A stretch of 64,000 nucleotides of DNA from Polycladidibacter hongkongensis (GTDB lineage Bacteria > Pseudomonadota > Alphaproteobacteria > Rhizobiales > Stappiaceae), in contig NZ_LLWC01000022.1 of NCBI RefSeq assembly GCF_001561995.1, positions 620,001 to 684,000 on the forward strand, written 5' to 3'. A program made the translations under genes and the position numbers. Below the pieces are notes generated by a model. The model saw only the letters and a list, made by a program, of their open reading frames with translations, was not told the DNA's origin and searched no databases. Below are positions 31,215-61,555 of the stretch, one piece after another. Each line of letters opens with the position of its first letter. Position 1 is the stretch's first letter.

Positions 31215-34200
31215 ATGTCTAAGACTGTTAATTTGGACGCGTTTCTTGAATCCATCGCCAAGCGTTTGAAAGCTATCGAAGATGCACCGAGCGTGAACCT
31301 TTCTGACGTCTCTGGGCTTAACCTTGATGACCCGAGCGCCAATACGGGTGTCTTCACGCCTAACGCTGATCTGGACATTTTAATAGCAGGGTCGGACAAT
31401 ACCGACTCCTTGGAAGGTACCGATGGCGCGAACATTATCATTGCGAAAAAAGGCAATGATACTTTGATTGGAAAAGGGGGCATAGACCTGCTGCTAGGTG
31501 GTGAGGGTATCGACACCGCCGATTATAGCTACCTTACAGGCACTCAAGGGGTTTTTGTTGATCTCGCCTTCAACTTTTCGGTGGCCGGAACCGGAGATAT
31601 CGACCTTCTAAAATCTATTGAAAACGCCATCGGCTCTCAAAACGCAGATGTTCTAATGGGTAACGGGCTCAACAACGTACTGTTGGGCAATGGTGGCAAT
31701 GACTATATTGATGGGCGCGGCGGATCCCACGATGTAGTCCAGCTATTTGGCAGCGCAGAAGACTACACATTTACAGCGACAACAATTGCAGGCAAACCGG
31801 CCTATACGATCTCCAGAGAAGTCGAACGCGACGGCACCCCTACGACCGAAACCACCACCATCGTCAACATCGAGTATGCCCAGTTTGAAGATGGTACCAG
31901 TAATGGCGTTAAACTACTGGACCTCTCAAGTTCCCTAATCGCCAGAGATGACCTCTACGAGGGCGTAGGTGAAGACGACACCTTCAACTTTAACGTTTTA
32001 GACAATGACGAAAAAATAGGCGACGTAAACTCCAAGGCGGTGATTACATCGCTCGCTTTTGGCGACACAAGTGGACAAGATCAAGACGGGGTGTTTGTTG
32101 TCTCCGGGGATTACGGAACCGTCAACATCAACAAATACAATGGTGCCGCCAACTTTATTGGCAATGACAAGGCAGATACTCTAGCTGCTGGAGAGGTGCG
32201 CGAGGAAACCTATACCTACACCACACTTGGGGGCGATACAGCCACCATCACCATTCAAATTGCAGGGATGAATGATAAACCAGTTATCAGCGCATCAAGC
32301 TCTGCGCAGATAACGGAGGCAGATGGCGACAACGTCGTAGCCACCGAGTTTAACTTGGATGTGAATGATGTCGATCATAACTCTCAGGTTGTCGCGGTTC
32401 GCGCAGAAAGCGATGCCGTACTTAAAGGCGATTCCAACGGCCTGAGCGAACAGCAGCTTGATACCCTTAAAGCCGGTTCGAATATCAAGGTGGTGGATGG
32501 AAACTATCAGTATTCGGCTGGCTCTCTCAATCTTGATAGTATGGCACTAGGGCAAGTGCTCACCCTGACCTATCAGGTCGCCGTGCAGGATGAACAAGGA
32601 GCTTGGTCTGACCCTCGAGAACTTACCATAACAATTTCAGGGCAGAACGATGCGCCAAGCATAACCTCATCTACCAATGCGACGATGAGCGAGGGGGATG
32701 GAGAATTCGCTGTAAAAACCGAGTTCTCTCTCACCGTCACGGACGTGGATGCAGGGGCAACGGTTGCAGCAATTATCACTGCGAACGGTGAGATAAAGGG
32801 CAACACCGACATTTTAACCGCAGATCAAATCGCTCAACTTACCGCAGCAAAGAACATTAAACTTGTTGACGGCAAGTATGTTTACGATGCTGGGTTAATG
32901 GATCTAGATGCGCTGCCTGACGGCAAAGACCTCGTCGTAACCTATTCTATTAAGGTGCAAGACAAGCACGGCGCAACCTCTGAAGAAGTTCCGATCTCAA
33001 TCACGATTACCGGCAGCAATGATAGCCCTGTTTTGTACGGTCCTGCGCCTGGACTTCTCACCATCCAGGAGCGCGATGCGGACACTCCCAACTCTGACTC
33101 TCTGGTCGCTGATGGAAGTGTAAAGGTATTTGACCCCGATACTGAAGTGTCTTCACTCTCTGTCAGTTTCTCAGATGACGTCACGGTTAAGACAAGCCAT
33201 CCAAACCTAACAATCCCTGCCATGGAAGTTACCGCGGGTGTCATTCCGAACGGCTCTATCAACAAAGGGAAGGTTTTCTACAGCTTCGAGATAAACGATA
33301 CAGCTAAACTGGATCATTTAGGCGCTGGAGAAACGATCACCGCCACATACACAATGGTGATTTCTGATGGCGTAGACGGTAGCGAGCCGCTGCAGGTGCC
33401 TGTCACCCTGACGATTGAAGGCGCGAACGACCGCCCTATCGCCACCGCAATGGTTCATGATGAGCCGTTAACTGAAGACGGTACAGATCTGGAGCTAAAC
33501 GCAAGTGGGGATGTCTTAACGGACGCACTTGTAAGCGATGCCGATATCAACGATTTGCACAGCGTTAGCAAAGTGGGTGTCGAAGGGAGCCCCCTATTTG
33601 ATGTAGGTGCAGAAACGACGGTTGAAGGTAAATACGGCGTACTGACCATAAAATCGGACGGCAGCTACAGCTATCGCCTCTTTACTGCCGACGATAATGC
33701 CGGTGGCGAGAGCAAGAATGAGGCGTTGCAGGCCCTGAAGGCTGATGATCAGCAGTGGGATGTATTTGAATTTGTCGTACAAGATGACAGCGGAGACGCA
33801 GAGACAAGTAGTGCGGCTAAGCAGAAGCTGACCTTCGAAATCATTGGCACAAACGACGCCCCGATCGCCAAAGACGTAAGCGACACAACAATACTTGAAG
33901 AGGACAGTGTTGATAACACTATTGCAGCGGTTTCGGATCCTGATGCAGGCTTGCTGAAAGATGTTGTTGATGTCGATAGCGATCCTGCGGATATTAAAGT
34001 CACCAAAATCAGCAATGGATCAAGCACGAAGACTTTGTCTTCTACAGGCGATCAACAAGCTTCTGCAACACTCCTGGGCACCTTTGGTACTCTGATCGTC
34101 TATGCCGACGGCACCTACAAATACGAGCTTGCATCGGCAAACTCGCTCGATAGCGATCAGGCAAAAGCACTCAACGCATTGCGAGAGGGGCAAGAAGCCG

Positions 34201-35123
34201 AGGAAACATTCAGCTTTACAGTCAGTGACGGTATTGATGACGGGCTACCAAAACAGCTCAGCTTCAACATAACTGGTACCAACGATGCGCCGGTTTTGAT
34301 CGGTGCCAATACTGCCTTCTCTGAAGATGACGGCACAACAACGCTAACGGGCATAATAGCGATCGAAGACGCTGATGCTGGAGACACCCATTCGATTGCG
34401 CGTGTGCAACCTGTTGGAATCGAAGGCTTTGGGTTTCCTGTCGGCGGGCTGTCAGCAAATGTGAACGACGCTGGAGATCTAGAGTGGATTTACACCGCAA
34501 ATAATGACCACCCCACCATCCAAGGCCTTGCAGACGGTGAAATCCGCTTCGAGCAGTTCGAAGTCACTATTGACGATGACACTGCCCAAGTAACAACAAC
34601 AGTTACGATTACAATAACCGGGCAAAACGATGCACCAACCTTTGCACCTCAGACCGAACCTGTCACGCTCACAGACACAGATACAATCGGCAATACCATA
34701 AACGTTCTGGGCGAAGATGGCCTAAATGCAGATGATATTGACGGCGATAATCTGAGTGTCGATTTGGACACTGTGAGCGGTGCGCTTACGCTAAAACTGG
34801 GAGGGGAAGACATTGTCCTACCACTTGAGCTGCTAACCGAACTAGAATTGGTAACCTTGCAGCAAGACGGTGAGCTCTCGCTGAATGACAACTTCGCTCA
34901 GGCGCTGGAGGCTATGCTGGATGAAGGCAATGCGGCCGACCTGAATGTCAATTTCGACATCACTGACGGATTAGCGCCCGTCAATGCAGATTTTGACGTA
35001 CATGTCGACGGCTCCGGCGAAGCGCAACTGGATGCAACTCCCCCGTATGGCACAATTGTTGACGGAGAAATGATCGTGCCCGATTTCTTGCTTCCAACAC
35101 AAGATGACGGCTCCGCTGGCTAA
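31215..35123 (+). CDS. Large type I secreted RTX/VCBS (cadherin-like) repeat protein
   Basis: A 1302-residue acidic protein; I see no cysteine, which is typical of secreted RTX adhesins. RTX-like nonapeptide blocks lie near the N-terminus (about 80-180: KKGNDTLIGKGGIDLLLGGE, GNGLNNVLLGNGGNDYIDGR). About seven VCBS/cadherin-like repeats follow, each closing with a G-x-ND-x-P junction near residues 352, 477, 600, 737, 878, 1021 and 1136. The C-terminus is acidic and has no RTX block, unlike most type I substrates. AAGGA precedes the ATG. The ABC and HlyD genes next door should export it. A surface adhesin or biofilm protein is likely. Confidence 0.85.
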   Translation: MSKTVNLDAFLESIAKRLKAIEDAPSVNLSDVSGLNLDDPSANTGVFTPNADLDILIAGSDNTDSLEGTDGANIIIAKKGNDTLIGKGGIDLLLGGEGIDTADYSYLTGTQGVFVDLAFNFSVAGTGDIDLLKSIENAIGSQNADVLMGNGLNNVLLGNGGNDYIDGRGGSHDVVQLFGSAEDYTFTATTIAGKPAYTISREVERDGTPTTETTTIVNIEYAQFEDGTSNGVKLLDLSSSLIARDDLYEGVGEDDTFNFNVLDNDEKIGDVNSKAVITSLAFGDTSGQDQDGVFVVSGDYGTVNINKYNGAANFIGNDKADTLAAGEVREETYTYTTLGGDTATITIQIAGMNDKPVISASSSAQITEADGDNVVATEFNLDVNDVDHNSQVVAVRAESDAVLKGDSNGLSEQQLDTLKAGSNIKVVDGNYQYSAGSLNLDSMALGQVLTLTYQVAVQDEQGAWSDPRELTITISGQNDAPSITSSTNATMSEGDGEFAVKTEFSLTVTDVDAGATVAAIITANGEIKGNTDILTADQIAQLTAAKNIKLVDGKYVYDAGLMDLDALPDGKDLVVTYSIKVQDKHGATSEEVPISITITGSNDSPVLYGPAPGLLTIQERDADTPNSDSLVADGSVKVFDPDTEVSSLSVSFSDDVTVKTSHPNLTIPAMEVTAGVIPNGSINKGKVFYSFEINDTAKLDHLGAGETITATYTMVISDGVDGSEPLQVPVTLTIEGANDRPIATAMVHDEPLTEDGTDLELNASGDVLTDALVSDADINDLHSVSKVGVEGSPLFDVGAETTVEGKYGVLTIKSDGSYSYRLFTADDNAGGESKNEALQALKADDQQWDVFEFVVQDDSGDAETSSAAKQKLTFEIIGTNDAPIAKDVSDTTILEEDSVDNTIAAVSDPDAGLLKDVVDVDSDPADIKVTKISNGSSTKTLSSTGDQQASATLLGTFGTLIVYADGTYKYELASANSLDSDQAKALNALREGQEAEETFSFTVSDGIDDGLPKQLSFNITGTNDAPVLIGANTAFSEDDGTTTLTGIIAIEDADAGDTHSIARVQPVGIEGFGFPVGGLSANVNDAGDLEWIYTANNDHPTIQGLADGEIRFEQFEVTIDDDTAQVTTTVTITITGQNDAPTFAPQTEPVTLTDTDTIGNTINVLGEDGLNADDIDGDNLSVDLDTVSGALTLKLGGEDIVLPLELLTELELVTLQQDGELSLNDNFAQALEAMLDEGNAADLNVNFDITDGLAPVNADFDVHVDGSGEAQLDATPPYGTIVDGEMIVPDFLLPTQDDGSAG

Positions 35124-35142
35124 CGCGATCTGGCTTCTTATC

Positions 35143-35188
35143 CTGTGGTTGAGGGGAACGCCTCGTTGCCCTCAACCACAGTCGTTTT
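35143..35188 (+). terminator. Strong hairpin between the secreted protein and its exporter
   Basis: A perfect 13-bp stem, CTGTGGTTGAGGG (35143-35155) with CCCTCAACCACAG (35169-35181), is followed by TCGTTTT. It can partly stop transcription from the structural gene into the exporter genes, setting different amounts of each. Confidence 0.75.
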
Positions 35189-35226
35189 AACAATGATAAC
35201 AAGTCTTGATTAGCTATGAGGCACGT

Positions 35227-37017
35227 ATGCGTAGTATTGATGAGACAGAGGCACATTATCCTGCAGTAAAAGTCTATCGCTCATCGTTCTCCGGCTTCTT
35301 TGCTGTTGGTTTCTTTTCAATTTTTGTGAATCTGGGGACTTTGGTGTCGCCGATTTACATGCAACAAATTTTTGATCGTGTGTTGCAAAGCAGCCACCTC
35401 GAGACCCTAGTTTTTTTAACAGTAATCGTATTCTTCTTTCTGGCAATAATCGCGATTTTAGACGCCATCCGAGGATCGATCCTCGCAAGTGTAGCAAGAT
35501 GGTGGGATGAAAGTGTGCACGCGGATTTGTTGGCTGCCATTGTCCAGCACTCGCGCGCCAAAGGATCATCACACGCTCACGCGGTCAATGATTTAGCCAC
35601 AATTCGCCAGTTTGTTGGCAGCCCAAGCGTGCTCCCTTTTTTTGATGGGCCGTGGATGCCGCTGTTCATGCTTGCCGTCACGCTAATCCATCCTTGGCTT
35701 GGCCTTGTTGCCGTTGGAGCGGCAGTATTGTTGCTTCTGCTCGCTGGCATAAATGACAGAATTACGCGCCATAAGATGAAAGGCCTTGCAGAGCATCGAA
35801 GCAGGGCACAATCAACTGTAGATGTGGCGGCGCGCCATAGTGAAAGCGTCTATAGCATGGGCATGTTACCCGGAGTCCTTACCAGATTTAGGGAAGATAA
35901 CAGCAAGGTCGCTCAAGCGATGTACGATGTTGCTTCAAGCTCGGCGAAAATTGGCGCTCTTACAAAGTTTGTAAGGTTTTCGGCCCAAATCTCCATTTTA
36001 GGTCTGGGCGCATATTTGGCTACCAACGGCCAGATCTCCGCTGGAAGCATGATCGCAGCCTCCATAATCATGGGCCGCGCTCTCGCTCCTGCCGAACAAG
36101 CGTTGGGAGCTTGGCGCAGCCTTGTCGGGGCCATGCAGGCACACAATAGAATTACCAATCTCCTGCGCATGGCTCCCGTCGCTCCCCCGAGAATTCAGCA
36201 ACCCAAAGTACATGGTAAATTGGATTTGAAGAGCGCTAGCTACGCCTTGCCGGGTCGTGAAAGGCCTATATTACGAGCATTGGATTTGCAAATAGAGGCT
36301 GGCACTTTGATTGGACTAGTTGGCCCCTCGGGGAGCGGAAAATCGACATTATGCCGCCTCCTCATTGGCGCTTTGGAGCCAACATCAGGATCCGTGCGAC
36401 TAGACGGCGTTGCAATGAAGAATTGGTCACAACAACAACTCGGTCAGAATGTTGGCTATCTGGCGCAATCCGTGGAATTGATGGAAGGGAGCATACGGGA
36501 AAACATAGCCCGGTTAAGCGAGCCTGATGACACAGCCGTGATACAAGCGGCCCGCCTCGCCGGGTGCCATGAATTGATAAACAGCTTGCCAGAAGGCTAT
36601 GAAACCCAGATCGGCATTGGACGCAGCACACTCTCAGGTGGCCAAGCGCAGCGCATTGGATTTGCCCGTGCCATATACAAGCTGCCAAAACTGATCGTAC
36701 TCGACGAGCCAAATGCAAATTTAGATGCAGAAGGCGAGAATGCGCTTCAAGATTGCATTTTCAAACTGAGATCTTTGGGATCAACCGTAATCGTTGTCAG
36801 CCATCGCCCTGCTGCGCTAGCAAAAGCCGATTTAATTGTCACTCTAGGGATGGGGCAAATACTGCAAAAACAAAGTGGCGAAGAATATCTGCGAAGAACC
36901 ATTCGCCCGGTTGGCGATGCATTGAAAAAGCTGGGAAAGCTCAAGCCATCAACCACAAGCGCAAACGAGAAATCTGCAGCGGCACCCCGGAGTTGGCACG
37001 GAGGGGCAAATGGCTAA
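35227..37017 (+). CDS. Type I secretion ABC transporter (PrtD/HlyB-like)
   Basis: The inner-membrane ATPase of a type I secretion system, 596 residues from ATG 35227 (GAGG six bases upstream). It lacks the C39 peptidase-like domain and so matches the PrtD group. About six transmembrane helices lie in residues 20-310. The ATPase then shows Walker A GPSGSGKST, signature LSGGQAQR, Walker B LIVLDEPNANLD and the H-loop VVSHRPAAL. The gene overlaps the HlyD gene by 8 bp. The obvious substrate is the RTX/VCBS protein encoded just before it. No TolC gene is in the window. Confidence 0.93.
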   Translation: MRSIDETEAHYPAVKVYRSSFSGFFAVGFFSIFVNLGTLVSPIYMQQIFDRVLQSSHLETLVFLTVIVFFFLAIIAILDAIRGSILASVARWWDESVHADLLAAIVQHSRAKGSSHAHAVNDLATIRQFVGSPSVLPFFDGPWMPLFMLAVTLIHPWLGLVAVGAAVLLLLLAGINDRITRHKMKGLAEHRSRAQSTVDVAARHSESVYSMGMLPGVLTRFREDNSKVAQAMYDVASSSAKIGALTKFVRFSAQISILGLGAYLATNGQISAGSMIAASIIMGRALAPAEQALGAWRSLVGAMQAHNRITNLLRMAPVAPPRIQQPKVHGKLDLKSASYALPGRERPILRALDLQIEAGTLIGLVGPSGSGKSTLCRLLIGALEPTSGSVRLDGVAMKNWSQQQLGQNVGYLAQSVELMEGSIRENIARLSEPDDTAVIQAARLAGCHELINSLPEGYETQIGIGRSTLSGGQAQRIGFARAIYKLPKLIVLDEPNANLDAEGENALQDCIFKLRSLGSTVIVVSHRPAALAKADLIVTLGMGQILQKQSGEEYLRRTIRPVGDALKKLGKLKPSTTSANEKSAAAPRSWHGGANG

Positions 37018-38326
37018 CGATTTGGCTCGCAATTTGCGGCTCAGCATTCGCAAAAACTGGTTCCTCGGCTTTCTAATAATCACCATTTGTTTTGGTGGGT
37101 TCGGGATATGGGCAAGCCTCAGCAACATATCTTCAGCCGCAATTGCGAGCGGTCAAGTCAGCCCTGATGGCAGCCTGCGGACGATCCAGCATTTAGAGGG
37201 CGGTATTGTCCGCCAATTGCAAGTGCGTGAGGGAGATCTTGTAGCAGAAGGTCAACCGTTGGTTTTGCTTGATAAGGCCCTCGCCGAAGCAAACTATCAA
37301 TCAACACGGCGGAAAATTCAGCGGCTCCGTGTCGTGCGTGAGCGCTTGCTGGCGCAAGAGGCGGGCAAGAAAGATCTCAAGATACCCTCCTTAGAGAAGG
37401 GAGTAGACGACAGGAGTTATCAGCAGTTTGTGCGCAATGAAAAGGTCAAATTCCTCGTTAAAAACAAACTAATAAGTGAGCAGCAAGCTGTGTACGACCT
37501 ACAGCAACAACAGGTCAAAAGCGAAATCTCTAGCCTGCGCGCCCAGATCCGCGGCATGGAGGAGCAGCTTAGCTTTGTCGCGAAAGAGCTGCTGGCAAAA
37601 AAAATGCTAGTTCAACGTGGTCTCTCGCGCAAACCCGAAATGTTTGCGCTGGAACGCAAGCGCGCTGAACTCAGCTCCGAAATATCAGCCCTCGATTCAA
37701 CGATCGCACGCGCAGGGCAAAAAATTGAAGAAATCAAGTTGGCAAAAATCTCTCTCCGTTCTGAAGCGCTTGAAGAGATCACCGAAGAACTAACAAAAGT
37801 TAACTCAGAGATCGCTCAACTGGAAGAGGCGCTGACAGCGACGAATGATGTATTGTCTCGAACTCTTATTAGCTCACCAATTGACGGGCGAGTATTAAAA
37901 CTAAACAACAAGACTATTGGCGGGGTAGTACGCCCCGGAGAGCCGATCATGACAATTGTGCCTGCGAATGAGGAGTTACTGATCGATTCACGGTTGCGGC
38001 TCTCCGATATTGATAATGTCCGTGTTGGCATGAGAGCCAAGATACAGATTACATCCTTTATGGCGCGCCATATGGTTCCGCTAGATGGAGAAGTTATACA
38101 GATCGGCGCGGATGCAGAAAGTGACCCAGACACAGGGGAACGCTTTTACAACCTGCGTGTGAGGGTCGATGACATGCGCGTCGCGACGCTTAATGATGGC
38201 GTAAAGCTATTACCTGGCATGCCGGCAGAAGTTTTCGTGCAGACTGGGCGCCATACCCCGCTTCGTTATTTGCTTGACCCGCTAAGGCAATCATTTCGCC
38301 GAGCGTTCCGCGAAGATACAACATGA
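37010..38326 (+). CDS. HlyD-family membrane fusion protein of the type I system
   Basis: A 438-residue periplasmic adaptor joining the ABC exporter to an outer-membrane channel. It has one N-terminal helix (about 18-38). A lipoyl half-motif follows (IQHLEGGIVRQLQVREGDLV), then a long coiled coil (about 85-290), the second lipoyl half (ISSPIDGRVLKLN) and the beta-barrel with MTIVPANEELLIDSRL, close to the HlyD family signature. The 8-bp overlap with the ABC gene indicates coupled translation. Confidence 0.93.
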   Translation: MANDLARNLRLSIRKNWFLGFLIITICFGGFGIWASLSNISSAAIASGQVSPDGSLRTIQHLEGGIVRQLQVREGDLVAEGQPLVLLDKALAEANYQSTRRKIQRLRVVRERLLAQEAGKKDLKIPSLEKGVDDRSYQQFVRNEKVKFLVKNKLISEQQAVYDLQQQQVKSEISSLRAQIRGMEEQLSFVAKELLAKKMLVQRGLSRKPEMFALERKRAELSSEISALDSTIARAGQKIEEIKLAKISLRSEALEEITEELTKVNSEIAQLEEALTATNDVLSRTLISSPIDGRVLKLNNKTIGGVVRPGEPIMTIVPANEELLIDSRLRLSDIDNVRVGMRAKIQITSFMARHMVPLDGEVIQIGADAESDPDTGERFYNLRVRVDDMRVATLNDGVKLLPGMPAEVFVQTGRHTPLRYLLDPLRQSFRRAFREDTT

Positions 38327-50132: not shown

Positions 50133-50717
50133 ATGGCAGGCAGCGCGGCGAGGGAGTTAAGCTTCTTGACCATCAGTTTTGACGAAAGACTGGTCGAAGT
50201 CGGTTCCAACAAATGTCGCGACGCATTCCGAGAGCTGTTCGATCATTTTGCCCCGCGGCTCAAGTCCTTCTATCTAAAAGGAGGGAGCGAAGAAGCTGCT
50301 GCCGAAGAGTTGGTGCAAGAGACCTTCGTGCTGATTTGGCGCAAAGCTGCCCTATATGACCCTCAAAAGGCTGCGGCCTCTACATGGATCTACACCATAG
50401 CTCGCAATCTTCGCATCGATAGACTGCGAAAGGAAAAAGCTATGATCTACAAAGAAGAGGAGTTTTTCGCGACTAAATTAACCACCCACGAGACCCAAAC
50501 AGACGTAACCTATCAAAATCAAATGAACACCCAACTGGCACAAGCCATCGCAAAATTGCCAGCCCCACAAGCGCAAGTTATCACCCTCGCATTCTTCGAG
50601 GAAGCCACTCATTCGGATATCGCCAAACGTCTGGCCTTGCCTTTGGGAACAGTGAAATCGCGCCTCAGGCTGGCATTCACGCGGCTTGCCGAAATGTTGG
50701 AGGGCAGCAAACAATGA
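50133..50717 (+). CDS. rpoE: ECF sigma factor, RpoE-ChrR type (ECF11)
   Basis: A 194-residue ECF sigma factor. Region 2 has FDHFAPRLKSFYLKGG, ELVQETFVLIWRKAALYDP and STWIYTIARNLRIDRLRKEK, which bind core polymerase and the -10. Region 4 has QVITLAFFEEATHSDIAKRL and LPLGTVKSRLRLAFTRL, which bind the -35. The chrR gene starts within its stop codon (ATGA), the usual sigma/anti-sigma coupling. In Rhodobacter this pair answers singlet oxygen. The ATG has no strong ribosome site nearby. Confidence 0.93.
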   Translation: MAGSAARELSFLTISFDERLVEVGSNKCRDAFRELFDHFAPRLKSFYLKGGSEEAAAEELVQETFVLIWRKAALYDPQKAAASTWIYTIARNLRIDRLRKEKAMIYKEEEFFATKLTTHETQTDVTYQNQMNTQLAQAIAKLPAPQAQVITLAFFEEATHSDIAKRLALPLGTVKSRLRLAFTRLAEMLEGSKQ

Positions 50718-51394
50718 TCAGGCATCACCCCTCGGCAGAAATGCTCATGAGCTACTCAGCGGGAACGCTCGACACTGGGCAAACGCTTATTGTCGCCGCT
50801 CATCTGGAAGCGTGCCCGACATGCGCCACTCACGCGCTGAATGCAAGATCCATCGGTGGCGCTTTACTTGAAAACGCCTTGCCCACAACGCTGAGTGAAA
50901 ATGTCACGTTCGAGTGCATTTCAGATAAGATAGAACAGGCTGAGCGGCCTGCCGCAAGCGAACTTGAAAGTCCGCAGCCTATTAAACTTGCCAATAGTCT
51001 GGAAGCATTTACACTCTCTCCGCTGCTCCAACAGGTTCTTCAGCAATCCTCCAGCCGTCTGCGCTGGCGCTTTGTCGCGCCAGGTGTTCGCCAGTGCGCC
51101 TTGCCCCTTTTTTCGAGCCCTGCGGAACGCGTTCGCCTTCTCGCGCTTGAACCAGGTTTCAAAACGCCAGAACACAGTCATCACGGCTTTGAGCACACCC
51201 TTGTCCTCAAAGGTTCTTACAGCGACGAAACCGGCAACTACTGCAAAGGAGACTTTCAAAGCGTAACGGCAGCCGATTGCCACCAGCCCGTTGCAGGCGG
51301 GGAAGAAGAGTGTATTTGCTTGACCGTTACGTCCGGCGCCCCTCGATTTACCGCATTTTTACCCAGATTACTCAGACCATTTATGGATCTTTGA
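50714..51394 (+). CDS. chrR: Zinc anti-sigma factor ChrR
   Basis: A 226-residue anti-sigma factor. The N-terminal zinc anti-sigma domain has His5, His30, Cys34 and Cys37 (HLEACPTCA), the same spacing as in Rhodobacter ChrR. A C-terminal cupin (about 115-210) shows LEPGFKTPEHSHHGFEHTLV followed by LKGSYSDETGNYCKGDF, with the metal-binding histidines and glutamate. The cupin is needed for release of the sigma factor by singlet oxygen in the known system. Its ATG overlaps the sigma stop by 4 bp. Confidence 0.94.
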   Translation: MIRHHPSAEMLMSYSAGTLDTGQTLIVAAHLEACPTCATHALNARSIGGALLENALPTTLSENVTFECISDKIEQAERPAASELESPQPIKLANSLEAFTLSPLLQQVLQQSSSRLRWRFVAPGVRQCALPLFSSPAERVRLLALEPGFKTPEHSHHGFEHTLVLKGSYSDETGNYCKGDFQSVTAADCHQPVAGGEEECICLTVTSGAPRFTAFLPRLLRPFMDL

Positions 51395-53597: not shown

Positions 53598-53624
53598 ACG
53601 AGAAAAACAGTACCGAGTGATTCG

Positions 53625-53653
53625 CCCGCCAATGGCAACGTTGGCGGGTTTTT
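53625..53653 (+). terminator. Rho-independent terminator after DUF533 gene
   Basis: CCCGCCAA (53625-53632) pairs with TTGGCGGG (53641-53648) and is followed by five T. Confidence 0.9.
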
Positions 53654-54171
53654 CAGTTGCTCATGCTGCATCCGTGTCCGAGGTCATTAACAAGACAATA
53701 ACTTCGGAATATTTGGTCAGTACTTCTTACCCTTTACCCTCCCCTTCAATCCTCTAAGATTAACTAGAATAGTTATAAGTATAAACACAAATCTCCAAGA
53801 AATATAATTCCTCCGTAAGTTTTATCAAATGCTCTTGCCGACCTGCAAGATACCTCCCCTCGCGAATGTTGCTCTTTCTTCAACATTCACCAGCAATTCC
53901 TTTCACAAACCGGGAAAAAATCGCAGAAACTCTGTCAAACACCCTACATTTTGGCGATAAACTTTTTAATAGGCCCAATAAAAATCAAGATGTATTGTCA
54001 TAATTCTTGACTTGAGGCGTCATCCAAATTACGTCTTTCCCAACAGATTACGGTGGCCGAATGGGACCCCTGCCTTTCACCGGAGCAACGGCCCAACGCC
54101 GTCATTGCCCCCAGACCCTCCTGAAATGCAGCCCCGTTAAGGCCTCCCCATAAAGATACCGGAGGCACGTT
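53654..54171 (+). other. Long leader/promoter region of the glutamate synthase-like gene
   Basis: About 520 bp, AT-rich on the left and GC-rich on the right. It contains an 8-bp perfect inverted repeat, GAATGTTG (53864-53871) with CAACATTC (53881-53888), which may be an operator. TTGACT near 54008 could be a -35, but no good -10 follows. The last 60 bp fold weakly. GGAGG (54161-54165) is the ribosome site of the next gene. No known riboswitch motif was recognised. Confidence 0.45.
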
Positions 54172-57100
54172 TTGGAACAAGATCGCAAACAGTTTGGTCT
54201 GTATGATCACAGCGAAGATAAAAGTAGCTGTGGCGTAGGTTTCATCACCCGTAAAACCGGGGAACAAACTCACGATGTGCTGGTGAAAGGCCATGAAGCC
54301 CTTTGTACAATTCCGCACCGTGGCGGCATGAGTGCCGAGGGTGTCGGTGATGGCGCTGGCGTCAACGTTGACATCTCGCAGAGCTTCTTCCGCAAACTCA
54401 CAGGCAACCCCGAGCTAAACCTAGGCGAGTTCGGTGTCGGCAACTTTTTCTTACCTGAAAATCAAGACAATTGGCATAGCGCCGATGCACTGATCACCGC
54501 AGCTATTGAGGAGAATGGCTGCAAAGTGATCCTCTCCCGCATGGTCGACGTCGACAATTCGGTCATTCGTCCGGCCGCTGTAAAGCACATGCTGCCAATC
54601 CGTCAGGTCATCTTTACCAAACCAAACGGACAAGACGCCAAGGCCTTCGATCGCACAATCAACGAAATTATGTTGAAGATCGAGTCTCAGGCATATGAAG
54701 GCGAAGCGCTGAAAGGCCTGTACCCTCTGTCACTGTCCGCCCGCACGCAAGTCTACAAGGGCCGTCTGAACTCTGACGAGATCATTCCATACTTTAAGGA
54801 TCTCATGGATGAGGATCACAAGATCCACACCATGTTCTTCCACACCCGCTTTTCAACCAATACCGAGCCGCAGTCTTCCATGGCGCAGCCATTCCGCTTT
54901 ATGGCGCACAATGGCGAGCTCAACACAGATAAAAAGAACCGCCTGTCCGAAGCTGCCATCGCACAAATGCGCCACAACCGCATCTACACCCCGCATGGCC
55001 AGTCTGACAGTGCCCGCCTCGACCAAACGCTTCAGCGCCGCCTGATTGAGGACGATCTCGACCTTATCACCGCTGTTGTTGCCATGATGCCACCAGCTTG
55101 GGAAAACGACACCCGTATTTCCAACGATGTTCGCATCATGCTGGAATACTTCTCGCTCTATGAAGAGAAGAACGATGGCCCGGCTGCACTCATTTTTGGC
55201 GATGGTACCGTCGTTGGCGCTCGTCTTGACCGTCTGGGCCTGCGTCCAATGCGCTCTGTTGAAACAGGCGATTACCTTTGTGTTATGTCCGAAGCCGGAC
55301 AGATCGACTTCCCGGCAGACGAAATCACCCGCCGAGGCCGTATTGAGGCCGGTGGTATGCTCTACTTTGATCACCGCACCGGTAAGAGCTACACCAGCCA
55401 TGAAGCGCTGGAAATGCTCGCCAATGCACACGATTACAAAGCCCTGCTTGAAGAAGCGCGCGTCAACATCAAGGACCTCCCGGCACAAGACGCCGCTGCA
55501 GACCTCGCTGAAGGCTTTACCGATGTGCAGCGCGCGGTTGCCTACTCACTCAATCAGGAAAGCTATAAGTTCCTGATGGATCCGATGATGCAAACCGGCG
55601 CAGAAAAGATCTCCGCCATGGGTTACGGCGTCGCCATCAACGCCCTGTCGGATCAAGAAGGCGGCATGGCCAAATTCTTCTCCCAGCGCTTTGCTCAGGT
55701 TACAAACCCACCGCTGGACTCCCTGCGAGAAGCCGATGGTATGACCCTGCGCGTAGCGCTTGGCGCCAAGCCGCACTTCAATAAGGAAAAGCAGCGCCAG
55801 ATCGTGATCGACAGTCCGATCCTTAACGCATGCGAGCTGGCCACCATCCGCGCACAGGATCAAGTGCCGGTCTCCGATATTGCAGCGCTGTACCAACCGG
55901 TTGCAGAAGACTGTGCCAAGGCCCAGCAAAACACCCTTATCAACGCGCTGGAAAAAACCTGCGATCAAATCGAAGCAGCGGCGCGCGAAAAAGGCGGGAT
56001 CATCATCCTGTCCGATGCAAAGGTAGATGCACAAAACGCACCCCTGCCACTCATCTTGCTTATCGCAGCGGCAAACCAGCGATTGATCGAAAAAGGTCTG
56101 CGATTCCGGGCAAGCTTGGTTGCCGAGAGTGGACAGATCGCCTCATCTCACCAAGTTGCCACGGCCCTTGGCTTTGGTGCATCAGCCTTGATGCCCCTTT
56201 CAGTTATCGCCCGTGCCAATGAAATGGCCGCAGGCAACGCCGAAGAAGCCAAGGCCAACGTGTCTCGCTTTATCAAGGCCGCTAAAAAGTCCCTGATGAA
56301 AACCATGGGTAAAGTGGGCCTATGTACCGCTGAAAGCTATATCGGTGGGGAGTTCTTCGAACCAAACTTCCTTGATACCAACGAGGCTGTTCTCGCCCGT
56401 TTCTTCCCGAACATGAAGGCCACAGTCGGCGGTGTAGACTTCGCGGCCATTGCCCTATCCAATGCCCAGTGGCATCAGCGCGCTTGCGAAATAAAAGACG
56501 CTAAGGAAATCCCGCTTCTCGGCCTGTTTAAAGAACGTTCGGAAGGTGCTGGCCACTCCTACGGCACAACCGCCGTGCGTGGCTTTGTCGAGATGACCGA
56601 AGAAGGCATCAAACTCAAAGGCACCTCTGACAAAGACAGCGAGTTAGACGAAAAAGACCTCTCCTTGCTGACCTTGAACCGCTTGAAAGACGCGTATGAC
56701 AGCGGGGCGGAAGCCTATCGTAAAACTAGCTTCGAGCGCCGTACGCCTAAAGAAATTGATAGTTTCAAAATCACCAAGTCGTACCGCGAGTTCTCCCAGT
56801 CACTGGCGCAAGAGCGCGCCAAACGTCCGGCAGCGCTACGTGATGTGCTCTCATTCCCGGCAGACGTAAACTGGGCTATGAGCGCCAAAGAGTTCGCAGA
56901 AGAACTGTTCAGCCATGATCTAGTGGGCAACAGCTCATTCCTCGTGCGCGGTATCGATTGCGATCAAAACGAAGATGGCAGCTTTACCTTACGCTTGTGT
57001 GGCCGCGCCAAAGGTCGTCCGGCGCAGATCAATGGTGCCCGCCTTGATGCGCTCAAAGACGCAATCATCCAAAAATTTGGCGATCAACTCAACGATCTGA

Positions 57101-59676
57101 AGAAGGTGGAAAACTCCATCACCTTCAAAGCCAGTGGCCAAGCGCTCTACTATTTCTCCAATTTGCAAAACGCCAACCAAAGCCTCTCAGTTACGCAGGT
57201 GCAACCAGCACACGAAGTAACTGCAACACTGGCCTCCGGCGCTATGAGCCACGGAGCATTGGTTGCCCCAGCACACGAAGCCGTCGCCCATGGCACCAAC
57301 ATGGCCGGCGCATTCTCAAACTCTGGCGAAGGCGGCGAACACTACACCCGCTATGGCACCATCCGCTCCAGCCGCATCAAGCAGCTGGCATCTGGCCGCT
57401 TTGGCGTATGGACAGGCTACCTCGCCGACCCGACTTTGGAAGAGCTGGAAATCAAGATTGCTCAAGGCGCCAAGCCGGGTGAAGGTGGTCAGCTACCGGG
57501 GCCAAAGGTAACCGTGGAAATCGCAGCCGCCCGCGGCGGTACACCGGGCGTGGAGCTTGTCAGCCCCCCACCGCACCACGACACCTACTCCATCGAGGAT
57601 TTGGCCCAGCTCATTCACGATGCCAAAGCCGCCCGTGTGCGCGTTATCGTCAAGTTGGTATCCTCTGAAGGCATTGGCACCATCGCCGTTGGCGTGGCCA
57701 AAGCCGGTGCAGATGTCATCAACGTTGCCGGCAACACCGGCGGCACCGGCGCTGCCGCTGTAACCAGCTTGAAGAACACCGGCCGCGCTGCTGAAATCGG
57801 CCTTGCCGAAGTACATCAGGCTCTGTGTGCAAATGGCCTGCGCGACAAGGTAATCTTGCGTTGCTCCGGTGCGCACCAAACAGGTTCCGACGTCGTTAAA
57901 TCTGCCCTTCTGGGCGGCGACAGCTTCGAATTCGGCACCACCGCACTGATGATGATCAAGTGTGTGATGGCGAAAAACTGTAACATCAAATGTCCGGCCG
58001 GTATCACCACCAACGCCGAGGTGTTTGAAGGTGACCCGCGCGCACTGGCGCAGTACCTCATCAATATCGCCCACGAAGTGCGCGAAATCCTCGCCCGTCT
58101 CGGTTTCAAATCCTTGCAAGAAGCCCGCGGCCGCGCAGATTACCTGCATCTTGTGGCGCACGAGCGCTCCATTGGCCAGCTAGACCTGCGCCAAATGCTC
58201 ACCTGCGTTCCTGAGGTTAAAATCAACCAACCGGTTTATCTGGAAGCCAACTTCGATGTGGACGACGAGCTGCTGAAAGAGTTCCGCAAGCAGGTCATCC
58301 AGCGTCAGCAAACAGAGGCGGTGCTCTCCAAAGGCATCAAGCTCAACAACCGCAACAAAACTGTTGGCGGCCAGCTGGCGATTGATATTGAGCGCACGCT
58401 GCAATACGAGCTCTCCGACAAACAGGCAAACTGCCTGCCAATGGTCTACACCGATGATCGTGGCCGCCGCCTGATCAAGCCGGAGACGCTCACCGTCAAC
58501 ACCACCGGTGCAGCAGGCCAAAGCTACGCGGCTTTCTGTAACTCGGGTATGATCTTCCGCCACGTTGGCACCTGTAACGACGGTGTTGGCAAAGGCGCAT
58601 CTGGCGGTAACATTGCCATCGTCTCTCCCGGCGGCGGTGACGAAGAAAACGTCCTTATTGGTAACTTCGCCCTGTTTGGTGCCTCAGGCTCCGCCCTTTA
58701 TGTCGAGGGCGGCGCAGGCGATCGCTTCGGCGTGCGCAACTCCGGCGCCTCCGCTGTTGTGGAAGGTGTTGGCGACTTCTGCGGCGAATACATGACCAAC
58801 GGTGCGATTTTGAACCTTGGGGACTTCGGCAAGGGCTTCTGTAATGGTATGTCCGGCGGCGTCGCCTACCAGTACGATCCTTACGATCAGCTCGAAAAGC
58901 TCTACAGCGCTGACAGCGTGAAACTGCACCGCTTGTCGGACGACAACGAACGTGCAGCAATTCACCGCCTCGCTGTAAAATCACTGCTTGAGCGCCATGT
59001 AAAATTCACCGGTTCTAAGAAGGCACAGTTCCTGCTCGACAACTTCGCTACCGAAGTTGCGAACTTCCGTTTCGCCACCCCGCTAGCGCTGGAAACCTAC
59101 CAGAACTACGAGGCCATCTTGAAAGCCAAGAGCCGCAAAGAGCTGGTGGAAGAGTTGTCGCAAGCTCTCGTTGCCCACCAAACACGCAAGTTCAAAGAGG
59201 CATACCGCGACGGTAAGCCGATCGCGGATGGCGCAATCCCGAGCTATGGCGAGACCGACACAGCGTTGATGTACACCCTCATCAACAACTACACTGTCTG
59301 GCACTGTGCTGAAGATGTGGTGAAATCGCGCTACAAAAAGGCCGAGGATCTGGATCAAAACACCATCACCTCAGGGGTCCGCAAGCTGATCCTTACAGAA
59401 GACTTCGCGCTAAACCAGAAACTAGCGGGCCATGCCCGAAAAGCGCTGGAAAGTTTTGGCGATGAAGAACTCGCGGTGATGATCTCGGACAAGCGGATGA
59501 AAGACTATAAAACCGCACTTTCAAACCGTAACGTCCGCCTCATGGACAGCATCGGCACTTATGGCTGGATCTTGCTGCAAGACCGCCAGAACCGTCAGGC
59601 TATGGGCGAAATCCCAGACTTCGAAATGCTGTTTGCCAAGGCAAGCTCCATGGAATTGGTGAAGCAGATGGTATGA
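54172..59676 (+). CDS. Glutamate synthase large-subunit homologue, long variant
   Basis: An 1834-residue GltB-like protein; ordinary GltB has about 1500. It starts at TTG 54172 with GGAGG 6 bp upstream. The first 19 residues act as a propeptide before Cys20 (SSCGVGFITRK), the glutaminase nucleophile. Class II amidotransferase motifs PHRGGMSAEG, HTRFSTNTEPQ and AHNGELNT follow. The central domain has FAQVTNPPLDSLRE near 505. The FMN domain (about 1020-1330) has SGAMSHGALVAPAHEA, AQGAKPGEGGQLPGPKV and SPPPHHDTYSIEDLAQL. Fe-S cysteines are 1264, 1270 and 1274, spaced C-x5-C-x3-C where GltB has x4. A GXGXG domain (about 1440-1640) and an unusual ~190-residue C-terminal extension end it. No GltD follows. 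Confidence 0.9.
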   Translation: MEQDRKQFGLYDHSEDKSSCGVGFITRKTGEQTHDVLVKGHEALCTIPHRGGMSAEGVGDGAGVNVDISQSFFRKLTGNPELNLGEFGVGNFFLPENQDNWHSADALITAAIEENGCKVILSRMVDVDNSVIRPAAVKHMLPIRQVIFTKPNGQDAKAFDRTINEIMLKIESQAYEGEALKGLYPLSLSARTQVYKGRLNSDEIIPYFKDLMDEDHKIHTMFFHTRFSTNTEPQSSMAQPFRFMAHNGELNTDKKNRLSEAAIAQMRHNRIYTPHGQSDSARLDQTLQRRLIEDDLDLITAVVAMMPPAWENDTRISNDVRIMLEYFSLYEEKNDGPAALIFGDGTVVGARLDRLGLRPMRSVETGDYLCVMSEAGQIDFPADEITRRGRIEAGGMLYFDHRTGKSYTSHEALEMLANAHDYKALLEEARVNIKDLPAQDAAADLAEGFTDVQRAVAYSLNQESYKFLMDPMMQTGAEKISAMGYGVAINALSDQEGGMAKFFSQRFAQVTNPPLDSLREADGMTLRVALGAKPHFNKEKQRQIVIDSPILNACELATIRAQDQVPVSDIAALYQPVAEDCAKAQQNTLINALEKTCDQIEAAAREKGGIIILSDAKVDAQNAPLPLILLIAAANQRLIEKGLRFRASLVAESGQIASSHQVATALGFGASALMPLSVIARANEMAAGNAEEAKANVSRFIKAAKKSLMKTMGKVGLCTAESYIGGEFFEPNFLDTNEAVLARFFPNMKATVGGVDFAAIALSNAQWHQRACEIKDAKEIPLLGLFKERSEGAGHSYGTTAVRGFVEMTEEGIKLKGTSDKDSELDEKDLSLLTLNRLKDAYDSGAEAYRKTSFERRTPKEIDSFKITKSYREFSQSLAQERAKRPAALRDVLSFPADVNWAMSAKEFAEELFSHDLVGNSSFLVRGIDCDQNEDGSFTLRLCGRAKGRPAQINGARLDALKDAIIQKFGDQLNDLKKVENSITFKASGQALYYFSNLQNANQSLSVTQVQPAHEVTATLASGAMSHGALVAPAHEAVAHGTNMAGAFSNSGEGGEHYTRYGTIRSSRIKQLASGRFGVWTGYLADPTLEELEIKIAQGAKPGEGGQLPGPKVTVEIAAARGGTPGVELVSPPPHHDTYSIEDLAQLIHDAKAARVRVIVKLVSSEGIGTIAVGVAKAGADVINVAGNTGGTGAAAVTSLKNTGRAAEIGLAEVHQALCANGLRDKVILRCSGAHQTGSDVVKSALLGGDSFEFGTTALMMIKCVMAKNCNIKCPAGITTNAEVFEGDPRALAQYLINIAHEVREILARLGFKSLQEARGRADYLHLVAHERSIGQLDLRQMLTCVPEVKINQPVYLEANFDVDDELLKEFRKQVIQRQQTEAVLSKGIKLNNRNKTVGGQLAIDIERTLQYELSDKQANCLPMVYTDDRGRRLIKPETLTVNTTGAAGQSYAAFCNSGMIFRHVGTCNDGVGKGASGGNIAIVSPGGGDEENVLIGNFALFGASGSALYVEGGAGDRFGVRNSGASAVVEGVGDFCGEYMTNGAILNLGDFGKGFCNGMSGGVAYQYDPYDQLEKLYSADSVKLHRLSDDNERAAIHRLAVKSLLERHVKFTGSKKAQFLLDNFATEVANFRFATPLALETYQNYEAILKAKSRKELVEELSQALVAHQTRKFKEAYRDGKPIADGAIPSYGETDTALMYTLINNYTVWHCAEDVVKSRYKKAEDLDQNTITSGVRKLILTEDFALNQKLAGHARKALESFGDEELAVMISDKRMKDYKTALSNRNVRLMDSIGTYGWILLQDRQNRQAMGEIPDFEMLFAKASSMELVKQMV

Positions 59677-59732
59677 GCTCGCAAAGAGCTCCCACCCATC
59701 CTTCAAGACAGATCGAGACACGGTAACGACCT

Positions 59733-61484
59733 ATGAAACTTCCCTTTATTCCAGAAAACGCTCCGTTTTCACCTGAGCAGAAAAATTGGCTTGCAGGCTT
59801 TTTTGCCGGACTTCACACCCAAATGGCTGTCAACGATGATGCCGCCCAAGAAGGCACTGCTGCGCTGAGCGTCAATGTTTTATACGGCACGCAAACCGGC
59901 AACTCTGAAATGGTGGCCGAAGAAATTGGCGAGGCCCTCACTGCTGCCGGTATGAGCCCGACCGTGGCATGTCTGGATGACATCGCCCTAGAAGACTTTG
60001 CAGCCATGGAGCAGGTGCTCATTGTCATCTCTACATACGGTGAAGGCGAAATGCCAGACAACGCCCAACTGTTCTGGGATGCCCTTAAAGCCACCGACGC
60101 CCCACGCGTTGAAGCCATGCGCTTTGCCGTACTGGCACTTGGCGACACCGGTTACGATGGCTTCTGTGAAGCCGGTAAGCAGATGGATCTGCGCTTGGAG
60201 CAGCTGGGTGCAAAACGCCTCTACCCGCGCAAAGACTGTGATGTTGATTTTGAAGCCCCGGCTGAAGAATGGACAAATGGCGTACTGGAAAAACTGGCCG
60301 AGCTAAAAGGCACGAGCGGGAGCGCTGCTCCTGTTGCTGCTAGCGCTGCCAAGAAACCTGAGAAATCCAAATGGTCCCGCAAGAACCCGTACGATGCACC
60401 GGTGACTGTGAACCGCCTGCTCTCTGGTGAAGGCTCGGCCAAGGAAATTCGTCATTACGAAATTGGCCTCGGCGACGGCGCGCCTACCTATGAAGCCGGT
60501 GATGCACTTGGTGTTATTCCAACCAACGATCCACAACTGGTCGAAGATTGGGGCAAGCGCCTTGGCATATCCCTGGAGACAAGCGTCAACGGCCACGACC
60601 GCCCATTGGGTGAGCTGTTGTTCAGCCACTTCGAAATCTCCACTCCCTCGAACGATTTTGTAAAAGCAGTTGCTGCGAAAGCAGGCGACGATCACCTTTC
60701 CCATATCGTTGAGCACGGCGACAAAGAAGCCATGGAGAACTTCCTCTGGTCCAAGGACGCCCTGGATCTGCTGTTGCTTTACCCGCAAGTGGAGTTCTCG
60801 CTGGATGAAATCACCGGCCTACTCAAGCCATTGCAGCACCGCGCTTACTCGATCTCTTCCAGCTCGAAGTTCGCGACTGACAGCGTACACCTTACCATTG
60901 CGACCGTACGCTATGAAAGCCATGGCCGTAAGCATGGTGGTGTTGCCTCCTCGTTCTTAGCTGATCGTGTAATCGAGAACGGCACAGCAAAAATCTTTGT
61001 GGCACCAAACAAATCGTTCCGCGTACCACAAAATAACGATGTGCCAATGATCATGGTTGGCCCGGGAACCGGAATTGCTCCGTTCCGCGCCTTCTTGCAA
61101 GAGCGTCAGGCAATTGGTGCCAAGGGTATGAACTGGCTGTTCTTTGGCGATCAACATGCCGCTAGCGACTATATCTACCAAGATGAAATCGAAACTATGC
61201 AGCAAAACGGCGTGCTGTCCCGCCTTGATCTGGCGTTCTCGCGCGATCAGGCCGAGAAAATCTATGTTCAGACCCGCATGATGGAAAACTCCAAGGAACT
61301 GTTCGCAGCTCTGGCAGAAGGCGGTCATTTCTATGTCTGTGGTGATGCCAGCCGCATGGCCAAAGATGTTGACAAAGCCCTGCACAGTGTCATCGCCAAA
61401 GAGGCGAACCTCAGCGAAGACGGCGCTAAGGATTACGTTAACAAGCTAAAGAAAGAAAAGCGCTACTTGCGCGATGTTTACTAA
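59733..61484 (+). CDS. NADPH diflavin reductase (CysJ/CPR-like)
   Basis: A 583-residue enzyme passing electrons from NADPH through FAD to an FMN domain. The flavodoxin domain (about 47-190) has VLYGTQTGNSEMVAEEIGEA and STYGEGEMPDNAQLFWDAL. The FAD domain shows HRAYSISSS near 368 and HGGVASSFLADR. The NADPH part has MVGPGTGIAPFRAFLQER near 443, FYVCGDASRMAKDVDKAL and an aromatic C-terminal tyrosine. It resembles sulfite reductase flavoprotein alpha subunits, yet no sulfite reductase gene is near. It begins 56 bp after the GltB-like gene and shares its terminator, so it is the likely electron donor to that protein. Confidence 0.9.
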   Translation: MKLPFIPENAPFSPEQKNWLAGFFAGLHTQMAVNDDAAQEGTAALSVNVLYGTQTGNSEMVAEEIGEALTAAGMSPTVACLDDIALEDFAAMEQVLIVISTYGEGEMPDNAQLFWDALKATDAPRVEAMRFAVLALGDTGYDGFCEAGKQMDLRLEQLGAKRLYPRKDCDVDFEAPAEEWTNGVLEKLAELKGTSGSAAPVAASAAKKPEKSKWSRKNPYDAPVTVNRLLSGEGSAKEIRHYEIGLGDGAPTYEAGDALGVIPTNDPQLVEDWGKRLGISLETSVNGHDRPLGELLFSHFEISTPSNDFVKAVAAKAGDDHLSHIVEHGDKEAMENFLWSKDALDLLLLYPQVEFSLDEITGLLKPLQHRAYSISSSSKFATDSVHLTIATVRYESHGRKHGGVASSFLADRVIENGTAKIFVAPNKSFRVPQNNDVPMIMVGPGTGIAPFRAFLQERQAIGAKGMNWLFFGDQHAASDYIYQDEIETMQQNGVLSRLDLAFSRDQAEKIYVQTRMMENSKELFAALAEGGHFYVCGDASRMAKDVDKALHSVIAKEANLSEDGAKDYVNKLKKEKRYLRDVY

Positions 61485-61521: not shown

Positions 61522-61555
61522 ATACCCGCCTGAAACGGCGGGTATTGTTGTTTTT
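61522..61555. terminator. Bidirectional terminator after the diflavin reductase
   Basis: ATACCCGCC (61522-61530) pairs with GGCGGGTAT (61537-61545) around a 6-nt loop. It is followed on the plus strand by TGTTGTTTTT and on the minus strand by TGTGATTTTT, so it can stop both convergent operons. Confidence 0.85.

Follow-up and report, generated by a model that had tools for sequence, protein, structure and literature searches.

Glutamate synthase (GOGAT) is a main route by which ammonium nitrogen enters glutamate, and the enzyme's classes are told apart by electron donor: the NADH type stands beside enzymes served by GltD, a subunit that carries iron-sulfur (Fe-S) clusters, and beside the plant and cyanobacterial enzymes, whose donor is ferredoxin or flavodoxin. 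Among solved structures, we take 1ea0, 2vdc and 6s6s to be the NADPH-GOGAT of Azospirillum, 7mfm the Bacillus enzyme, and 1llw the ferredoxin-dependent GOGAT of Synechocystis. Outside this family, P450 BM3 carries a diflavin donor, and a diflavin nitrate reductase has reportedly recruited a module of the cytochrome P450 reductase (CPR)/CysJ type as its electron donor. Here we analyze a 64,000-nucleotide (nt) stretch of Polycladidibacter hongkongensis DNA, hereafter the window (contig NZ_LLWC01000022.1, positions 620,001 to 684,000, forward strand), in which a gene for a long GltB homologue stands directly upstream of a gene for a CysJ-type diflavin reductase. We put at roughly 80% the probability that this pair encodes a diflavin-type, NADPH-dependent glutamate synthase in which the reductase replaces GltD.

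The pair is like the GltB-GltD NADPH-GOGAT in forming a two-gene unit, in holding the same four large-subunit catalytic domains in identical order, and in having NADPH as its presumed donor, but it has a CysJ-type reductase in the place of GltD, about 340 extra residues, a C-x5-C-x3-C motif, and a clade of its own. With the ferredoxin-dependent enzyme it shares one large catalytic subunit that presumably takes one-electron donors at an Fe-S cluster, but it lacks the ferredoxin-loop insertion and has a dedicated neighboring reductase and extra segments. CysJ (TIGR01931, 624 bits) has the same flavodoxin-FAD-NADP layout (FAD, flavin adenine dinucleotide), N-terminal segment and C-terminal DVY as the reductase, which nevertheless falls below the curated cut-off, has gltB instead of cysI as its partner gene, and belongs to a separate tree group. 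As in P450 BM3 and the diflavin nitrate reductase, a CPR/CysJ-type module would have been taken on as electron donor; here it is a separate protein, and the recruiting enzyme would be a glutamate synthase.

The long gltB (54172..59676, plus strand, as are all features below) encodes 1834 amino acids (aa) from a TTG start, with a likely ribosome-binding site, GGAGG, 6 nt 5' of it (54161..54165). The reductase gene (59733..61484, 583 aa) follows after 56 nt. We surveyed this arrangement in a class sample of 289 genomes and an order sample of 150, the source genome being counted in both. Long GltB is encoded by two class-sample and nine order-sample genomes, and the reductase gene lies directly downstream of it in 9/9 sample genomes other than the source. 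A second collection, genome contigs scanned with a segment specific to the long form, gave 584 matching stretches, and a relative is encoded in 545. In the best-scoring 80 of these 545, on which our locus counts for that collection rest, the reductase gene comes right after long gltB in 78, at 48–95% identity; at the remaining two (L142, L169), the contig breaks off within gltB. The survey of gene neighborhoods proposed in the preliminary description of this DNA favors a linked pair. When neighbors were clustered across the 80 loci, gltB turned up at 76, the reductase at 73, and no further gene at more than 13. The intergenic gap has a median of 10 nt over 72 pairs, and 4-nt overlaps are frequent; a few extreme values (-691 to 857) stem from start sites having been guessed by motif. 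A fusion of the two genes was considered and rejected: the reductase is a separate open reading frame (ORF) in all 72 loci where it was picked out, with no dedicated search for fusions made. In one Rhizobiales metagenome-assembled genome (MAG; L145), the reductase is split in two pieces.

With taxon labels as in the records, the pair spans Pseudomonadota, Actinomycetota, and one Verrucomicrobiota-labelled MAG. Its loci come from Alphaproteobacteria, Porticoccaceae and other Gammaproteobacteria, Rhodococcus, Mycolicibacterium, and the MAG, labelled Verrucomicrobiales; named genera, partly cultured, include Pseudovibrio, Cohaesibacter, Agrobacterium, Rhodococcus, and Ketogulonicigenium. This linkage across phyla rules out a chance neighborhood. 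The nearest named relative among the best 80 loci is Pseudovibrio stylochi, whose GltB is 94% identical over its full length. Plasmid copies of the pair occur in Ketogulonicigenium, Shinella, and Tsukamurella, and three annotated plasmid records name the products "glutamate synthase-related protein" and either "sulfite reductase subunit alpha" or "flavoprotein subunit alpha". Phage cargo was rejected after a scan of viral contigs, in which 36 pattern matches included zero relatives. In Porticoccaceae-type loci (L144, L150, L188), the order is aroK-aroB-gltB-flv-hemE, with Pfam names verified on L144. This position between aroB and hemE supports a glutamate synthase function for the pair insofar as the same site holds gltBD in Pseudomonas.

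Pfam recovers a complete large-subunit architecture in the long GltB. The class-II glutamine amidotransferase domain GATase_2 covers residues 20–424 (54229..55443), Glu_syn_central 454–730 (55531..56361), the flavin mononucleotide (FMN)/2-oxoglutarate domain Glu_synthase 974–1312 (57091..58107, also by alignment), and the GXGXG domain 1427–1593 (58450..58950). The four domains stand in GOGAT order behind the N-terminal nucleophile Cys20 (54229-54231), and Cys20 together with the Fe-S cysteines Cys1264, Cys1270, and Cys1274 (57961..57993) is identical throughout ten aligned long GltBs, the window's included. The nucleophile motif recurs in 71/75 long ORFs of the second collection, defined as exceeding 1500 aa and containing QGAKPGEGGQ (5/80 loci yielded none); of the other four, three start at a contig edge and one is broken. 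The broken gene, in Shinella UYSO24 (L153), appears interrupted near residue 1550. The FMN/2-oxoglutarate region aligns well to solved GOGATs. Both reading frames lie where the preliminary description had put them, and its account of a full GltB architecture, followed directly by a flavodoxin-FAD-NADPH reductase, is borne out.

The protein also departs from ordinary GltB. Against the NCBIfam equivalog NF008730 it scores 1027.2 bits and misses the cut-off of 1047 by little. Alignment to 6s6s exposes two additions: an insert at about residues 797–995 (56560..57156), with 197 residues between the anchors 797 and 995 versus 37 in 6s6s (~160 extra), and a C-terminal extension at 1637–1834 (59080..59673), with 197 residues past 1637 versus 20 (~177 extra). 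Neither has a Pfam match at E ≤ 1, and an hhalign probability of 0.1 indicates that they are unrelated to one another by that comparison. Both appear specific to the family: in a plasmid collection, 90 records match long GltB at E ≤ 1e-100, nine of them over at least 80% of its length, and each extra segment (E ≤ 0.001) occurs only in those nine, which hold the full long GltB. In the ten long GltBs aligned at the outset and in 75/75 long ORFs of the second collection, the Fe-S cysteines have the spacing C-x5-C-x3-C. This departs from the canonical GOGAT motif, C-x5-C-x4-C, which we found in 23 of the 28 class-sample loci L006–L033, the locus set covered by this count, the other five giving no Fe-S pattern match. 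The insertion in the FMN domain of 1llw, which we take to be the ferredoxin loop, is missing from long GltB in the alignment. A 54-row tree places all 29 long forms together on one side of a very long, fully supported branch. Separately, proteins consisting of only the FMN domain of GOGAT (open frames of 325–679 aa) are encoded in five of the ten long-GltB genomes (G338, G348, G363, G370, G404).

The reductase carries Flavodoxin_1 (residues 49–178), FAD_binding_1 (215–408), and NAD_binding_1 (441–547), and its best-scoring solved relative is 6efv, a sulfite reductase flavoprotein (E 3.7e-127). It misses the cysJ equivalog TIGR01931 (624.1 bits against a cut-off of 668.15) and passes the sulfite reductase subunit alpha family NF004859 (448.5 against 432). 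A CysJ-like N-terminal segment of the W-x2-GF type is present in 64/72 linked reductases, and the CysJ-like motif SRD-x3-K-x-YVQ in 71/72. Because this motif marks NADPH use, the linked reductases probably use NADPH. In the order sample, a reductase at least 50% identical to that of the window is found in nine genomes, and these are the very nine with long GltB; the matches that rank next are 35–44% identical. In the reductase tree, one branch (support 93, not starred) separates the linked proteins from 21 others. The loci of these others look different: a sulfite-reductase-type protein, 22–28% identical to the CysI of the source genome, lies alongside in 20 of the 21 loci fetched, the 21st locus starts at a contig end, and GltB is near the reductase in 0/21.

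We then compared the histories of the two genes. For 29 pairs, a tree of the FMN/GXGXG region of GltB and a tree of the reductase have 16 of 26 splits in common, against a mean of 0.18 and a maximum of 5 in 1000 label shuffles. The actinobacterial pairs and the Verrucomicrobiales MAG are nested among proteobacterial ones in both trees, and Actinobacteria do not form a single group in the reductase tree. This agreement says that gltB and the reductase gene travel together, the label shuffles leaving common species descent in the comparison.

The source genome (G000; 3.74 Mb, with a completeness rating of 100%) encodes a single full GOGAT, the long GltB of the window; at a further site, on another contig, no more than 41 of 369 positions match. 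A Fer4_20 search found no GltD there, where 9/14 control genomes give a match, and the best TIGR01317 match reaches 31 bits. A separate gltBD, for which the preliminary description had proposed a search, was not found in this genome. In nine of the ten long-GltB genomes, a second full GOGAT and a GltD above the family cut-off are both absent, and in five of these nine no GltD match exceeds 36 bits. The tenth, G363, has the long pair plus a standard gltB with gltD, on different contigs (loci L073 and L078). In same-family genomes without the pair, gltD lies close to the standard gltB in 4/4. The second collection was searched for GltD in 50 genomes from the 80 loci, a search that covered GltD and not standard GltB; 14/50 have no GltD-like match above 261 bits, and some of these 14 are MAGs that may be incomplete. 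Thus, the pair is largely complementary to GltD in the ten sample genomes and not in the 50, so that some lineages have no other GOGAT candidate with a dedicated reductase, and in other lineages the pair comes on top of one.

Tight linkage, matching trees, and the lack of a GltD over the cut-off in 9/10 genomes make a GOGAT-like enzyme with a CysJ-like donor the best explanation, as the preliminary description had proposed. The alignments and gene maps show that the catalytic domains are conserved and that the reductase gene follows wherever the examined contigs continue. Mechanistically, the glutaminase domain would release ammonia from glutamine at Cys20, and the ammonia would move inside the protein to the FMN site, where with 2-oxoglutarate it would give 2-iminoglutarate. 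NADPH would reduce the reductase, FAD first and then the flavodoxin FMN; single electrons would be handed to the GltB Fe-S cluster and onward to the GltB FMN, with two glutamates as the outcome. The reductase would in this way take over the work of GltD without Fe-S clusters of its own, in a role comparable to that of ferredoxin or flavodoxin in the plant and cyanobacterial enzyme. Electron transfer, product, and complex are all inferred. The earlier suggestion that electrons enter straight into the FMN domain fares less well, entry via the Fe-S cluster appearing likelier. Since the insert and the C-terminal segment occur exclusively in this family, we guess that they are the best docking-site candidates for the reductase. 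We also lean, with less assurance than for the core assignment, toward a fuller picture in which the pair is a further GOGAT class: a dedicated diflavin reductase would pass electrons from its FMN to the Fe-S cluster of long GltB, docking on the two family-only segments, and the unit would have spread between phyla and replaced gltBD outright in several lineages.

The reductase might instead be the CysJ of the genome's CysI, beside gltB by accident, with long GltB fed by ferredoxin. The protein is CysJ-like and passes NF004859, no other diflavin reductase was found in the genome, and the CysI-like hemoprotein, on contig C33 beside genes that resemble cysG and cysH by eye, has no cysJ next to it; of a cysJI pair, whose presence the preliminary description had left open, only the hemoprotein was found, with no second diflavin reductase. 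The source-genome CysI has a long match in 108/150 order genomes, and for 78 of these 108 a diflavin reductase match at E ≤ 1e-24 is lacking, by matches compiled by hand from among the reductase matches listed; in at least six of the 78 (G298, G345, G355, G401, G405, G422), a longer frame of 740–930 aa gives a weaker match. All four same-family genomes are among the 78, with CysI 72–74% identical and diflavin reductase matches absent or weaker than 1e-6. Because these close orthologs stand in genomes without a diflavin reductase, CysI alone does not explain the reductase, and so CysI of this kind would often work with another donor. The preliminary description had named a sulfite reductase dependent on this reductase as a finding that would refute its proposal; that objection is correspondingly weakened. 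The 78/80 linkage to gltB, the separate grouping of linked reductases, the missing ferredoxin loop, and a second reductase beside another hemoprotein in G354 and G370 also count against an accidental neighbor, which we regard as very improbable.

A milder version has the reductase donate to long GltB and also to CysI (or NirB), which would couple nitrogen and sulfur assimilation. The genome encodes, besides CysI, a NIR_SIR protein on contig C4 that resembles NirB, with this one diflavin reductase found for all of them, and the W-x2-GF-type segment of the linked reductases is itself CysJ-like; the CysI orthologs that manage without a reductase in the four same-family genomes make a shared donor unlikely. 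The large subunit could also be an amidotransferase-oxidoreductase that uses an acceptor other than 2-oxoglutarate, in a side pathway and not as a glutamate synthase. The very long branch that parts the long clade from canonical GltB, the altered Fe-S spacing, and the presence of GltD in many pair genomes of the second collection would fit such an enzyme. The well-aligned FMN/2-oxoglutarate region, the 9/10 long-GltB genomes without another full GOGAT, and the Porticoccaceae-type loci at the gltBD site of Pseudomonas speak for glutamate synthesis, and we consider a different acceptor unlikely.

Several points weigh against a glutamate synthase in which the diflavin reductase replaces GltD. Among the 50 second-collection pair genomes, 36 also have GltD (32 over the cut-off, four at 396–410 bits); because GltD is present, the pair is at most a second GOGAT there. 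Four of the nine sample genomes lacking a GltD above the cut-off (G370, G404, G434, G338) hold weaker GltD relatives of 124–257 bits, also with Fer4_20 matches, which could in principle help long GltB. The genes around the pair differ even in Pseudovibrio stylochi. The window reductase, as the sole one found beside CysI- and NirB-type proteins, may serve others too, and the shifted Fe-S spacing and the added segments could be signs of a different chemistry. Some of the genomes examined are MAGs.

Within the window, the genes adjoining the pair match the Pfam families DUF533, Fe-ADH, DUF2478, SDR, and BCCT. The Pfam scan places neither GltD nor a sulfite reductase hemoprotein among them, in agreement with the preliminary description. 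A shared chromosomal site with gltBD was rejected: 0/10 flanking window genes occur in the stretches fetched around standard gltBD in four same-family genomes, and none of the same ten lies around the pair in the stretch fetched from Pseudovibrio stylochi. Of the single terminator proposed after the pair, the hairpin itself is present (61522..61545; 9 pairs, 6 GC), but its count is not raised against shuffles (14 such hairpins versus 13.5), which makes it weak evidence. An Rfam search for RNA signals gave zero matches; sigma-54-like sites are not beyond chance (58 versus 54.5 expected), with zero in 53600-54171. A sigma-70-family gene resembling extracytoplasmic function sigma factors overlaps a putative ChrR-type anti-sigma gene, identified by eye (50133-51394); both lie on the upstream side of the Fe-ADH and DUF533 genes ahead of gltB. 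Farther away, 31215-38326 probably holds a type I secretion locus: a gene for a 1302-aa protein bearing cadherin-like and RTX-type repeats stands ahead of genes for an ABC transporter and an HlyD protein. This locus adjoins a local dip in GC content at 30-32 kb.

Our search of open-access full texts, which excluded subscription papers and preprints, found no description of an enzyme made of GltB and a diflavin reductase, in line with the preliminary description. The pairing suggests that a central nitrogen enzyme exists in a version not yet described. If our assignment is true, a CysJ-type donor would define a new GOGAT class in named, partly cultured bacteria, and would make the exchange of a reductase subunit in a complex flavoenzyme testable. 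Under current annotation, a sulfite reductase subunit would then be credited to the wrong pathway, and nitrogen metabolism can be misread from such names, as genomes without gltD seem to lack GOGAT.

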